This document shows positions 14,997-18,568 of a DNA stretch of 64,000 nt, in pieces. A program made the position numbers and the translations under genes. The DNA is from Piscinibacter gummiphilus (lineage in GTDB: Bacteria; Pseudomonadota; Gammaproteobacteria; Burkholderiales; Burkholderiaceae_C). Position 1 is the stretch's first letter. Each line of letters begins with the position of its first letter. The DNA lies in assembly GCF_032681285.1 (NCBI RefSeq), contig NZ_CP136336.1:5257001-5321000 (forward strand), written 5' to 3'. The notes beneath the pieces were generated by a model. The model saw only the letters and a program-made list of their open reading frames with translations, was not told the DNA's origin and did not search any database.

Positions 14997-16115
14997 TCAG
15001 CCCCGGCGCGCTTTCACCGCGCTGCTGAGCACGTTCAGCACTTCGAGCGAATCGTCCCAGCCGATGCATGCATCGGTGATGCTCTGGCCGTAGGCGAGCT
15101 TGGACGGATCGTCCTTGCCCGCGCTGAACTTCTGCGCGCCGGCCTTGAGGTGGCTCTCGACCATCACGCCGAAGATGCGGCGTGAGCCGTGCGCGATCTG
15201 CGAGGCGATGTCTTTCGCCACGTCGATCTGGCGCTCGTGCTGCTTGCTGCTGTTGGCGTGCGAGCAGTCGACCATCAGCGTGCCGGGCAGCTTGGCCGCT
15301 TCGAGGTCCTTGCAGGCGGCCTCGACGCTCGCCGCGTCGTAGTTGGGCGCCTTGCCGCCACGCAGGATCACGTGGCAGTCCTTGTTGCCCTTGGTCTCGA
15401 CGATGGCGACCTGTCCGTTCTTGTGCACCGACAGGAAGTGGTGCGGGCGGGCGGCGGCCTGGATGGCGTCTGTTGCGATGCGGATGTTGCCGTCGGTGCC
15501 GTTCTTGAAGCCGATGGGCGCCGAGATGCCCGAGGCCAGCTCGCGGTGCACCTGGCTCTCGGTGGTGCGGGCGCCGATGGCGCCCCAGCTGATGAGGTCG
15601 CCGATGTACTGCGGCGAGATCACGTCGAGGAACTCGCTGCCAGCCGGCACGCCCAGGCGGTTGATCTCGGTCAGCAACTGGCGCGCGATGCGCAGGCCTT
15701 CATCGATGCGGTAGCTCTCGTCGAGGTACGGGTCGTTGATCAAGCCCTTCCAGCCAACAGTGGTGCGCGGCTTCTCGAAGTAGACGCGCATCACGACTTC
15801 CAGCGTGTCGGCGTACTTCTCACGCTGCTCCTTCAGGCGGCGGGCGTAGTCGACGGCGGCGGCCGGGTCGTGGATGGAGCAGGGGCCGATGATGACGAGC
15901 AGGCGGTCGTCCTGGCCCGACATGATGTTGCGCACGCGCTGGCGCGTCTCGGCGATCAGCGATTCGGCGGCCGTGCCACGGATGGGGAAGAAGCGCACCA
16001 GGTGCTCGGGGGGCGGAAGGGGCATCACGTCCTTGATCCTTTCATCGTCGGTCTGGCCGGTCTTGTCGACGGGCGCATACCAACCCTCCGCGGCGCTGCT
16101 GGACTTGGCGTTCAT
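14997..16115 (-). CDS. aroG: 3-deoxy-7-phosphoheptulonate (DAHP) synthase, class I
   Basis: 372 residues of the AroF/AroG/AroH type. Motifs include IIGPCSIHDP near residue 75, RVYFEKPRTTVGWKGLINDP near 110, SWGAIGARTTESQVHRELASG near 180 and VDCSHANSSK near 285. It condenses phosphoenolpyruvate and erythrose 4-phosphate, the first step of the shikimate pathway. The start is fixed by GAGGAG 8 bases upstream of ATG. Upstream lie a Phe-rich leader peptide, a GC-rich hairpin and nine T, a complete transcription attenuator. This implies feedback by charged tRNA-Phe (and perhaps Tyr/Trp) on top of allosteric control. Confidence 0.96.
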   Translation of the reverse strand: MNAKSSSAAEGWYAPVDKTGQTDDERIKDVMPLPPPEHLVRFFPIRGTAAESLIAETRQRVRNIMSGQDDRLLVIIGPCSIHDPAAAVDYARRLKEQREKYADTLEVVMRVYFEKPRTTVGWKGLINDPYLDESYRIDEGLRIARQLLTEINRLGVPAGSEFLDVISPQYIGDLISWGAIGARTTESQVHRELASGISAPIGFKNGTDGNIRIATDAIQAAARPHHFLSVHKNGQVAIVETKGNKDCHVILRGGKAPNYDAASVEAACKDLEAAKLPGTLMVDCSHANSSKQHERQIDVAKDIASQIAHGSRRIFGVMVESHLKAGAQKFSAGKDDPSKLAYGQSITDACIGWDDSLEVLNVLSSAVKARRG

Positions 16116-16153
16116 TCGAGTTCTCCTCGTTCGTGGTGGCTGTGTGGCAGGGG

Positions 16154-16185
16154 CAAAAAAAAACCGCCGGAGTCTCCGGCGGTTT
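16154..16185 (-). terminator. aroG leader attenuator terminator
   Basis: On the minus strand AAACCGCCGG (16185-16176) pairs with CCGGCGGTTT around a 5-nt loop, and nine T run through about 16155. This strong intrinsic terminator lies about 39 bases upstream of the aroG ATG, inside the leader transcript. The segment CCGGCGG also occurs inside the leader-peptide gene (16237-16231). It can pair with CCGCCGG of the terminator's 5' arm (16182-16176), giving a mutually exclusive antiterminator. A 7-bp pairing UUUGGUU (16255-16249) with AACCAAA (16206-16200) overlaps the Phe/Trp codons and the region after the leader stop. Confidence 0.88.
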
Positions 16186-16211
16186 GGTGAGCGGTTGCGT
16201 TTGGTTTTGAC

Positions 16212-16286
16212 CTACGCGCTTGCCTCTCCTCCGCCGGTGCGGTGCGAGAACCAAAAGTAGGCAAAGAAAAAGCTGGCGAAACGCAT
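16212..16286 (-). CDS. aroG leader peptide, Phe-rich (attenuator)
   Basis: A 24-codon frame on the minus strand starting MRFASFFFAYFWFSHRTG, with the remaining residues GGEASA, then TAG. It holds six Phe plus one Tyr and one Trp within 13 residues, all end products of the pathway begun by aroG. The control codons sit just before the antiterminator segment, as in the pheA and trp leader systems. There is no Shine-Dalgarno upstream, but a promoter places the transcript start on or beside the AUG, so translation may be leaderless as reported for trpL of Sinorhizobium meliloti. The start and function are inferred from sequence alone. Confidence 0.82.
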   Translation of the reverse strand: MRFASFFFAYFWFSHRTGGGEASA

Positions 16287-16293
16287 GGGCCGC

Positions 16294-16324
16294 AATGTAG
16301 CACGGGGCTCACTGGATCCGTCAA
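16294..16324 (-). promoter_or_regulatory. Extended -10 promoter of the aroG leader
   Basis: Minus strand: -35 TTGACG (16324-16319, 5 of 6 consensus) and extended -10 TGCTACATT (16302-16294, TGn plus TACATT), spacer 19 bases. The predicted +1 is 16287-16286, coinciding with the A of the leader AUG at 16286. The long spacer is partly offset by the TGn element. Confidence 0.55.
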
Positions 16325-16505
16325 GCGCGCAGTTTTCGACGACTTGCGCTGCGTCATGCAGGTGAGCGAGCAGTAACGAATTGTGAACCGTGCGCTAGTT
16401 CCTATCCCGTGAACCAGGGGGTCCATAGCATGGTTTCACCTGATGGCGCACCCGATGGTGCCGCCGCCCGGCCACAACAGCTCTACCCAACACGAGGGAA
16501 CCGAC

Positions 16506-16907
16506 ATGAACCGCACCGCCTTCTTCCGCCGTTTCAGCATGGCCCTGGCAACGCTCACCATCGCCTCCGCCAGCATCGCGAGCGAAGACGCTCAGCTGAC
16601 CTCCGCCCGCGAAGCCGCCGCCTCTGATGCCCAAGTCGCCGTGCAACTGCAGAACTGGCTCGACCAGCGCGACATCGCCCTCACCGCCCAGGCCGATGGC
16701 CTGATCACCAACGACATGCGCGCCGCGGCAGCCGAGTACGCGGTGACCCAATTGGTCGAGGCCGATGGCCTCGTCAGCGCCCAGCTGCAGGAATCGGTGG
16801 CGGCACAACTCGCCGCCGCCGACGGCCTGGTGGTCGACCACGCCGAATTCGCGGTCAACCTGCCGGCCGCACGCCCTGCCCCGATCGTGGTGGCCGGCGG
16901 TCGCTGA
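16506..16907 (+). CDS. Small exported protein with three ADGL repeats
   Basis: 133 residues; ATG at 16506 with GAGGGAA upstream. Residues 1-26 look like a signal peptide (MNRTAFFRRF, hydrophobic core, ASIAS). The mature part is Ala/Gln-rich and helical with three copies of ADGL (residues 63-66, 86-89, 105-108). Each is followed by a short amphipathic stretch, so the region looks like degenerate repeats of about 20-23 residues. I do not recognise a family. It runs divergently from the aroG leader and convergently to tldD, without operon partners. Confidence 0.7.
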   Translation: MNRTAFFRRFSMALATLTIASASIASEDAQLTSAREAAASDAQVAVQLQNWLDQRDIALTAQADGLITNDMRAAAAEYAVTQLVEADGLVSAQLQESVAAQLAAADGLVVDHAEFAVNLPAARPAPIVVAGGR

Positions 16908-16925: not shown

Positions 16926-18401
16926 TTACTCGGTCCCGCCCACCGTCAGCCGGTCGATGCGCAGCGTCGGCTGGCCGACGCCCACCGGCACGCTCTGCCC
17001 TTCCTTGCCGCAGACGCCCACGCCGGTGTCGAGCTTCATGTCGTTGCCGATGGCGCTGACGCGGGTGAGCGCGTCGGGTCCGTTGCCGATGATGGTCGCG
17101 CCCTTCACCGGGTACTGGATCTTGCCGTTCTCGACCCAGAAGGCTTCCGACGCCGAGAACACGAACTTCCCGCTCGTGATGTCGACCTGACCACCGCCGA
17201 AGTTGGTGGCATAGAGGCCGCGCTTGAGGCCGGCGATGATTTCTTCCTTCGTCTTGTCGCCACCCAGCATGTAGGTGTTGGTCATGCGCGGCATCGGGAC
17301 AGCGGCGTAGCTCTCGCGCCGGCCGTTGCCCGTGGGCGCGACTCCCATGAGCCGCGCGTTCATCGAGTCCTGGATGTAGCCCTTCAGGATGCCGTCTTCG
17401 ATCAGCACGTTGCGCTGGCTCGGGTTGCCTTCGTCGTCGACGTTGAGCGAGCCACGGCGGTCGGGAATGGTGCCGTCGTCCAGCACCGTCACACCCTTGG
17501 CGGCCACCCGCTGGCCGATGCGGCCGCTGAAGGCGCTCGAGCCCTTGCGGTTGAAGTCGCCCTCCAGCCCGTGGCCCACCGCTTCGTGCAAGAGCACGCC
17601 GGGCCAGCCGGGCCCGAGCACCACGCTCATCTCGCCCGCCTTGGCCGGGCGGGCTTCGAGGTTGGTGAGCGCGGCCTTGACGGCTTCGTTCACATAACTT
17701 TCGATGATGCTGTCGTGGAAGTAGCCGAGGCCGAAGCGCCCGCCACCGCCACCGCTGCCGACTTCGCGCCGCACCTTGCCGTCGATGGTCTGCTCGGCGA
17801 TCACAGTGACCGACAGGCGCACCAGCGGGCGCACGTCGGCGGCGAGCGTGCCGTCGGCGCGTGCAACCAGCACCACGTCGTATTCGGCAGCCACGCCGGC
17901 CATCACCTGCTTGATGCGCGGGTCCTTGGCGCGGGCCAGCTTTTCCACCTTCTCCAGCAGCGCGACCTTTTGCGTGCTGTCGAGCGTGGCGATCGGGTCC
18001 ATCGGCGCGTAGAGCTTGCGGCTCTCGGCGATGCGGTGGTGGCCGGTGATCTTCACCGTCTTGCTCTGCCCGGCCGCGGCGATGGTGCGCACGGTCTGCG
18101 CGGCGTCGAGCAGCGCGGCTTCGGAGATGTCATCGGAGTAGGCGAAGGCGGTCTTCTCGCCCGCCACCGCCCGCACGCCCACGCCCTGGTCGATGCCGAA
18201 GCTGCCGGATTTGACGATGCCCTCTTCCAGGCTCCAGCCTTCGCTGCGCGTGTACTGGAAGTAGAGGTCGGCGTCGTCGATGCGGTGCCTGGCGATCGTC
18301 GCGAGCGCCTTCGACAGCGTTGCATCGGTGAGCCCGAAGGGTTCCAGCAACAAGGACCTGGCCGTGGCCAGGCGCTCCAGGGTGGGTTCGCGCGAGATCA
18401 T
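16926..18401 (-). CDS. tldD: Metalloprotease TldD
   Basis: 491 residues from ATG at 18401. A longer frame from TTG at 18443 exists but adds 14 unlike residues. The zinc-binding HEAVGHGLEGD motif (HExxxH) is near residue 270, and the C-terminal PMPRMTNTYMLGG and SASEAFWVENGKIQYPVKGATIIGNG are typical of TldD. TldD acts with TldE/PmbA as a cytoplasmic protease that matures or degrades peptides (microcin B17, CcdA). No tldE is in the window; the two genes are usually unlinked. Confidence 0.95.
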   Translation of the reverse strand: MISREPTLERLATARSLLLEPFGLTDATLSKALATIARHRIDDADLYFQYTRSEGWSLEEGIVKSGSFGIDQGVGVRAVAGEKTAFAYSDDISEAALLDAAQTVRTIAAAGQSKTVKITGHHRIAESRKLYAPMDPIATLDSTQKVALLEKVEKLARAKDPRIKQVMAGVAAEYDVVLVARADGTLAADVRPLVRLSVTVIAEQTIDGKVRREVGSGGGGGRFGLGYFHDSIIESYVNEAVKAALTNLEARPAKAGEMSVVLGPGWPGVLLHEAVGHGLEGDFNRKGSSAFSGRIGQRVAAKGVTVLDDGTIPDRRGSLNVDDEGNPSQRNVLIEDGILKGYIQDSMNARLMGVAPTGNGRRESYAAVPMPRMTNTYMLGGDKTKEEIIAGLKRGLYATNFGGGQVDITSGKFVFSASEAFWVENGKIQYPVKGATIIGNGPDALTRVSAIGNDMKLDTGVGVCGKEGQSVPVGVGQPTLRIDRLTVGGTE

Positions 18402-18568
18402 GAACTCATTGTAGGAGTCGCCCCTCGCTACGGTGTTGGGCAAAGACCCTGTCTCGTCCTCGTCGTTTCACAGTTCTTTACCTGATCGCTTGTCGGCCGC
18501 GCCGGGTGGGCGCCCGTTGTGAGCCACGTGCCGCACAACTTCCTTCAACAACCCTTCAGGAGTTCCCC

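Follow-up and report, generated by a model that had tools for sequence, protein, structure and literature searches.

We identified, directly upstream of the aroG gene of Piscinibacter gummiphilus, a short aromatic-rich leader whose sequence features point with high confidence to a classical ribosome-mediated transcription attenuator sensing aromatic aminoacyl-tRNAs. We propose that it represents an attenuator family, widespread in Pseudomonadota and hitherto undescribed, whose leaderless mini-mRNA would let a ribosome initiating on the first codon monitor the charging of Phe-, Tyr- and Trp-tRNA jointly and would thereby gate the entry enzyme of the shikimate pathway; we assign this reading a probability of roughly 0.5. 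DAHP synthase, the aroG product, is the first enzyme of the route and commits carbon to all aromatic amino acids. As a putative attenuator of the classical type, the element forms a broad new family, with a leader that is probably leaderless and a single sensor for the three aromatic amino acids.

Organization of the aroG leader

The locus lies on the minus strand of the window, that is, the whole 64,000-nucleotide stretch of DNA that was analysed. Its features, in window coordinates, are as follows.

16319..16324, minus strand: -35-like hexamer TTGACG, with a 19-nt spacer; weakly conserved
16294..16302, minus strand: extended -10 box TGCTACATT, seven bases upstream of the leader ATG
16286..16287, minus strand: predicted (leaderless) start of transcription, on the A of the leader ATG or adjacent to it, from the -10 spacing and the lack of a Shine-Dalgarno sequence
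16212..16286, minus strand: leader peptide ORF, 24 codons and the stop codon TAG
16248..16271, minus strand: control codons 6-13 (F F F A Y F W F)
16239..16250, minus strand: segment 1 (UUCUC and CCGC), partner of segment 2
16224..16237, minus strand: segment 2 (CCGGCGG and GAGAG)
16176..16182, minus strand: segment 3, the terminator 5' arm CCGCCGG
16164..16170, minus strand: segment 4, the terminator 3' arm CCGGCGG
16155..16163, minus strand: T-tract of nine T of the intrinsic terminator
16123..16128, minus strand: Shine-Dalgarno sequence GAGGAG of aroG (duplex energy -8.9, versus -1.7 at the leader)
14997..16115, minus strand: aroG, DAHP synthase of the AroFGH family, start ATG at 16115

The leader frame (MRFASFFFAYFWFSHRTGGGEASA) runs from an ATG at 16286-16284 to a TAG at 16214-16212. 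Its 24 residues include six Phe, one Tyr and one Trp, exactly as a first-pass annotation of this DNA had counted them. At least eight F, Y or W residues, the number held by the leader, occur in one of the 245 ATG-initiated ORFs of 15-35 aa in the window. The strong terminator with nine T that had been placed before aroG was recovered as well: its stem has 11 pairs, seven of them G-C, around a core at 16182-16176 / 16170-16164, and it is followed by the T-tract. The CCGGCGG at 16237-16231, inside the leader frame, indeed repeats the terminator 3' arm exactly and can pair with the 5' arm, as had been noticed. Folding of the leader region gave -18.7 kcal/mol for the terminator (z -5.4), -26.7 for the antiterminator (z -4.1), and a z of -3.7 for the whole leader. 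The promoter is an extended -10 box, which is conserved; a scan for a consensus sigma-70 promoter found none.

Upstream of the leader lies a divergent frame on the plus strand (16443-16907) of up to 154 aa, with an internal signal-peptide-like start MNRTAFFRRFSMALATL and without a Pfam match. Beyond it stands a PmbA/TldD metallopeptidase gene (16926-18443, minus strand).

The downstream gene and the DAHP synthase complement

The aroG protein matches PF00793 and TIGR00034 (539.3 bits, cut-off 173.2), stays below the cut-off of the AroG equivalog (548.3 versus 568), and has the Phe-sensitive AroG of E. coli among its matches as the closest solved chains. Its own genome, which is 99.77% complete, yielded one AroFGH match and no match to a type II DAHP synthase. 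One further PF00793 match, downstream of a pyrG-like frame, reads like KdsA. By these sequence searches, aroG is the only DAHP synthase found in the genome, and a single switch can thus cover the three end products.

Having only one DAHP synthase is not general, since three genomes of the window's family (G049, G093 and G133) carry a second AroFGH paralog, with 59% identity and without a leader of the aroG pattern (loci L145, L146 and L147). In these three genomes, regulation seems to be divided between paralogs. At the paralog loci we also observed an unrelated Trp-rich frame (L146) and a hairpin with a T-tract (L147).

Conservation within the family

A hairpin scan is weak evidence by itself, with 0.6 hairpins followed by a T-tract expected by chance in the stretch; conservation settles that the leader is real. 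We took the best 80 of at least 588 relatives and dropped two (L013 and L080) whose contigs end inside the region. In all 78 usable relatives, an aromatic-rich leader precedes aroG. Together with the window they form a set of 79 family loci, and every one of the 79 has a CCGCC/GGCGG hairpin with at least five T. The automatic terminator finder chose wrong hairpins at about 20 loci with interrupted stems; refolding of 21 loci returned the CCGCC/GGCGG stem and T-tract in 21 of 21. With 28 leaders from the rest of the order, the collection comprised 107 leaders. Phe, Tyr and Trp occur together in 75 of the 79 family leaders, so that in the family all three tRNAs could in principle be sensed, and in 17 of the 28 others.

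A covariance model, R1, was built from 56 of the 107 leaders; its E-values are rough, owing to a short calibration. At E <= 1e-6 it matched 194 of 200 family genomes, 176 of the 179 of good quality, and 137 of 141 genera, each genome having one match except G628, with two. In the window's own genome, the next match elsewhere had an E-value of 0.11. A lack of conservation of the leader frame or pairing among relatives, which had been named as grounds for refutation, was not observed: both the aromatic-rich frame and the alternative pairings are kept in the family and beyond it.

Four Acidovorax loci (L044, L068, L076 and L077) have leaders that stop right after GGCGGA, at a TGA. Past this stop, GAGAGG remains conserved, suggesting that the stretch has a function as RNA.

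Conservation beyond the family

Among 150 genomes of the order, 115 had an AroG-like match, and only 34 of these a strong leader match, defined as full-length with E <= 4.2e-10. All 34 lie directly upstream of the AroG place and on the same strand. They comprise the window, 24 training leaders, four that had been seen by eye and left unused, and five previously unnoticed (G019, G066, G069, G088 and G113). The next match followed at E 5.4e-6. At E <= 0.1, at least 100 of the 150 genomes had a hit among the matches listed, mostly covering the terminator part, with some full-length from 2e-5. By eye, a leader was recognized in 28 of the 80 upstream stretches fetched (80 of about 147 AroG places listed), and the leader of G088 (L155), missed by the filter and found by R1, is the 29th.

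In a class-level sample, R1 matched seven of 321 genomes, four of them outside the order and from two families. In a phylum-level sample it matched 19 of 200, eleven of them outside the class, from only three genera (three families). By inspection, all four and all eleven of these leaders precede an AroFGH-type frame. The distant leaders keep the design while their letters differ, for example MIHLTASFWYFYYSSLAAGGLRSI and MITVATSYFWYFSYDSLLAAGGSRSI.

In the AroG tree, the proteins of four leader-bearing genomes from other orders (L171-L174) are nested among the AroG rows of the window's order, beside G098 and G138, on a starred branch of seven rows; judged by these sequences, it looks as if aroG and its leader had moved together between lineages. 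Two genomes of 1.7-1.9 Mb (G031 and G076) have a close AroG (76-77%) and no leader upstream of aroG (L088 and L089), probably through leader loss.

Alternative pairings and selection on RNA and peptide

The leader RNA can form three mutually exclusive pairings, 1:2, 2:3 and 3:4. The 1:2 hairpin (16250-16223) folds at -11.3 kcal/mol. Taken alone, its 25 nt fold no better than shuffled sequences (z -1.2; 25 of 200 shuffles as good), and the longer antiterminator stretch (16250-16175) has a z of -2.1. RNAalifold on the whole alignment returned the terminator only, with no compensatory change, and we therefore tested the 1:2 hairpin as a named structure. In the alignment, 81.5% of its cells are paired, compared with 75.9 in shuffles; the cells changed on both sides number 45, compared with 27.1; and the covariation score is 0.169 (shuffled 0.106, 0 of 500 as high; slid versions at most 0.085). 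These three measures exceed all 500 shuffles and all slid versions. Two others do not stand out from shuffles: there were 5 pairs changed on both sides, versus 3.9, with 98 of the 500 shuffles reaching this count, and 14 further pair types, versus 14.0, a count reached by 343 of the 500. Columns 52-67 of the hairpin illustrate the variation, with 28 G-C, 19 C-G, 6 G-U and 2 A-U pairs and 23 unpaired.

Segments 2, 3 and 4 read C-G-C in 81 of the 107 loci and T-A-T in 11, the remaining 15 showing other combinations. Fisher's test of the switch between segments 2 and 3, which ignores kinship, gave a p of 1.8e-9 (102 rows with C/T and G/A). We repeated the test with kinship, on an AroG tree of 95 rows that includes 31 of the 79 family loci. 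There, six independent pairs on starred branches remained, in which segment 3 on average followed in 1.4, opposed in 0.1 and was unchanged in 4.5, and the sign test was not significant (median p 1). Of the compensatory 2:3 versus 3:4 pairings that had been anticipated, the complementarity is thus kept and the C-G-C/T-A-T switch is seen, but the switch is not significant given kinship.

The GGCGG of segment 2 has one mismatch in seven of the 107 loci. Leaders differ in the frame in which they translate it, three being in use (...GGRE; ...PAEER or PLAEG; ...LRRRK), but its position in the RNA is kept: it is conserved as RNA. The aromatic run behaves differently and is conserved as peptide: synonymous codons interchange (312 TTT and 177 TTC for Phe; 116 TAC and 64 TAT for Tyr) and Trp is kept at a varying distance. 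The last aromatic codon lies 0-18 nt (median 11) before GGCGG, the stop codon 1-26 nt after it, and segments 2 and 3 are 36-61 nt apart. For a ribosome footprint of the usual size, these distances would allow a stalled ribosome to mask segment 1 and leave segment 2 free, as the attenuation mechanism requires.

In the fold of the full leader (16222-16286), about 14 bp form between the run of Phe codons and GGCGGAGGAGAGGC, the purine-rich segment 2. The control codons and segment 2 may therefore exclude each other directly.

A predicted leaderless start

In 77 of the 79 family loci, a TAnnnT box lies 6-9 nt upstream of the leader start, compared with a mean of 3.0 loci and a maximum of 8 in shuffled sequences; in 76 of the 79 it is accompanied by TGn (shuffled mean 0.2). 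TTGACA, with at most one mismatch and a spacer of 15-20, was found 13 times over the 77 loci with TAnnnT. For such a -10 spacing, the A of the ATG is the usual start position of sigma-70 promoters. A Shine-Dalgarno sequence is absent: over the 20 upstream bases, the median duplex with the anti-Shine-Dalgarno was 0.4 for the 79 leaders, -1.7 for shuffled sequence, and -5.95 for 68 aroG starts, these being only the rows with an ATG at the expected place. Duplexes of -4.5 or lower occur at one of the 79 leaders, in 6.8% of 395 sets of shuffled upstream bases, and at 60 of the 68 aroG starts.

For nine leaders, the start had been moved to the in-frame ATG adjoining the -10 box, farther upstream in eight and farther downstream in L075, so in those nine the choice itself favors a leaderless start. 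Of the 28 leaders from elsewhere in the order, 14 keep the -10 spacing (shuffled mean 1.4) and 14 do not; at the phylum-level loci, a box containing TA was seen by eye about 7 nt upstream of the leader start. From the -10 spacing and the absent Shine-Dalgarno sequence, we predict with fair confidence that the leader mRNA is leaderless in the window's family, and that this is not universal. The first-pass annotation had missed this probable leaderless start.

Proposed mechanism

We propose that the transcript begins on the leader AUG or immediately beside it and that a ribosome translates MRFASFFFAYFWFS... behind RNA polymerase. When Phe-, Tyr- and Trp-tRNA are charged, the ribosome would clear the aromatic run and reach the stop codon; segment 2 would then be covered or held by segment 1, the 3:4 terminator would form, and transcription would stop before aroG. 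When Phe, Tyr or Trp is short, the ribosome would stall in codons 6-13, cover segment 1 and free segment 2, which would capture segment 3, so that no terminator forms and aroG is read. The first-pass interpretation of the locus as an attenuator is supported by the conserved aromatic-rich frame and alternative pairings; the response to starvation is a prediction.

If the predicted start is correct, leaderless initiation would be part of the design, a ribosome being loaded at the first base with no interfering 5' UTR. Lineages that kept and lineages that lost the adjacent -10 box offer a ready comparison.

Alternative explanations

The amino acid response could be narrower than proposed above. 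The leader might attenuate and sense mainly Phe, together with Tyr, its Trp codon being either tolerated or retained for the sake of the RNA structure, in which case it would not sense three amino acids; we consider this less likely than not. Phe codons dominate the 107 leaders (489 F, 180 Y and 98 W), Trp is missing from 10 of the 28 leaders elsewhere in the order, and the aroR leader of Corynebacterium glutamicum has F-Y-F and yet, according to a review, Tyr availability is without effect (PMC11802643). Set against this, Trp is present in 77 of the 79 family leaders despite a distance to segment 2 that ranges from 12 to 24 nt, and the eleven phylum-level leaders, from three genera, all hold Trp and Tyr besides Phe. 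The predicted start is open to a different challenge, namely that the transcript has an ordinary 5' UTR and comes from a promoter farther upstream, the -10-like box being a protein site or a secondary promoter. That half of the rest-of-order leaders (14 of 28) lack TAnnnT at 5-9 nt, some having one 22-34 nt upstream, and that a good -35 is missing at most family loci would fit such a promoter. We nevertheless consider it unlikely, given the TAnnnT and TGn counts in the family (77 and 76 of 79, versus 3.0 and 0.2 in shuffles), the rarity of Shine-Dalgarno pairing at leader starts as compared with aroG, and the TA-box seen by eye about 7 nt before the start at phylum-level loci.

Two further explanations dispense with attenuation as the conserved function. 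The terminated leader RNA, or the peptide, could act in trans, as rnTrpL and peTrpL are reported to do in Sinorhizobium meliloti, and be conserved for that. A terminated RNA of about 132 nt would indeed arise, and the S. meliloti precedent is likewise leaderless (PMC7298713); but the strong matches whose place was determined stand in cis to aroG, and the peptide tail is read in three frames and so is not conserved as peptide, for which reason we rejected a trans-acting peptide as the main function. Overall, we regard action in trans as very improbable. The hairpin could also be a constitutive terminator of an upstream transcript next to a short frame that arose by chance, as hairpins with T-tracts are not rare at the rate given above. 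Conservation contradicts this explanation, which we rejected and give a negligible chance: relatives retain the frame, the terminator and the -10 box as a set upstream of aroG, and the strongest genome-wide matches occur only there.

Comparison with known systems

The classical counterparts of the proposed aroG attenuator are the pheA and pheST leaders of enterics, which are Phe-rich and have a terminator and an antiterminator; they differ from the aroG leader in the genes downstream. Membership in the Rfam family Phe_leader (RF01859) was rejected, since the window scores 20.4 bits (E 0.43) and the gathering score is 55. The aroG leader, present in almost every genome of its family (194 of 200) and reaching other classes, is absent from Rfam 15: neither the leader of the window nor those of nine relatives had an Rfam match at gathering score. 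Neshat et al., in the abstract of their 2014 study of C. glutamicum aroR, reportedly call the attenuators that they analysed leaderless.

Attenuators at DAHP synthase genes have been reported or predicted in other lineages. The aroR leader of C. glutamicum, before aroF, is one, with the aromatic codons F-Y-F (PMC4046766, PMC11802643). Its transcription rises under Phe limitation, Tyr limitation being said not to matter (PMC11802643), and the organism has two DAHP synthases (PMC4046766). Compared by description, aroR belongs to another phylum, has another leader, and contains no Trp in its motif. The uORFC-13-1 motif at aroF of Acholeplasma is likewise a predicted uORF with Phe codon(s) and a terminator at a DAHP synthase gene; it differs in having a ribosome-binding site in the published model, a requirement of at least one Phe residue, another phylum, and 24 examples (PMC8632094). 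In two Vibrio species, attenuators are predicted before a DAHP synthase operon, aroA-I-alpha-Y > tyrA (PMC1173090 Table 7, from Merino's database). These are bicistronic with tyrA, belong to another lineage, and are known there without sequences (PMC1173090). Within Burkholderiales, an attenuator is predicted in Bordetella parapertussis before gyrA > serC > aroQ-pheA > tyrA (PMC1173090 Table 7), which is another operon, with no DAHP synthase gene.

Leaderless attenuation, too, has precedents. The trpL leader of S. meliloti is a proteobacterial ribosome-dependent attenuator whose RNA likewise starts with the leader ATG, and its translation was seen by Ribo-seq (PMC7298713, PMC10117765). It differs in sensing Trp only, in preceding trpE(G), in its 14-aa leader, and in belonging to Alphaproteobacteria. 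If our prediction is true, leaderless attenuation would extend beyond S. meliloti trpL to a second amino acid system, over a wide range. In Streptomyces lividans, the leader ORFs LeuL1, IlvL and TrpL2 are similarly reported to be transcribed leaderless; these belong to Actinobacteria and concern other amino acids and genes (PMC8079986). In B. cenocepacia, 82 short 5' UTRs are reported, some with attenuation (PMC5688073).

In E. coli, the control of DAHP synthase is shared among three isoenzymes, with TyrR and TrpR (PMC5343134); here, a single gene appears to be under one RNA switch, which could integrate all three amino acids. A regulon survey places aroG under TrpR in Pasteurellales and under TyrR in Vibrionales (PMC5343134). 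A term search of the main text of a premature-terminator survey gave no DAHP match (PMC2965389). The excerpts of four further papers (PMC1262725, PMC11878033, PMC6321483 and PMC4117421) name no aroG attenuator, the last of them naming the trpS and ilvL leaders of Caulobacter. Across our literature search, which lay mostly outside subscription papers, the portions retrieved described no aroG attenuator for Burkholderiales or Xanthomonas.

The first-pass suggestion of a new arrangement combining three end products is supported by sequence as regards the three amino acids, present together in 75 of 79 family leaders; the attenuation of a DAHP synthase gene is not new in kind, being known from C. 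glutamicum and proposed in Acholeplasma. DAHP-synthase attenuators and leaderless attenuation each have precedents, and all main features of the aroG leader are known in kind.
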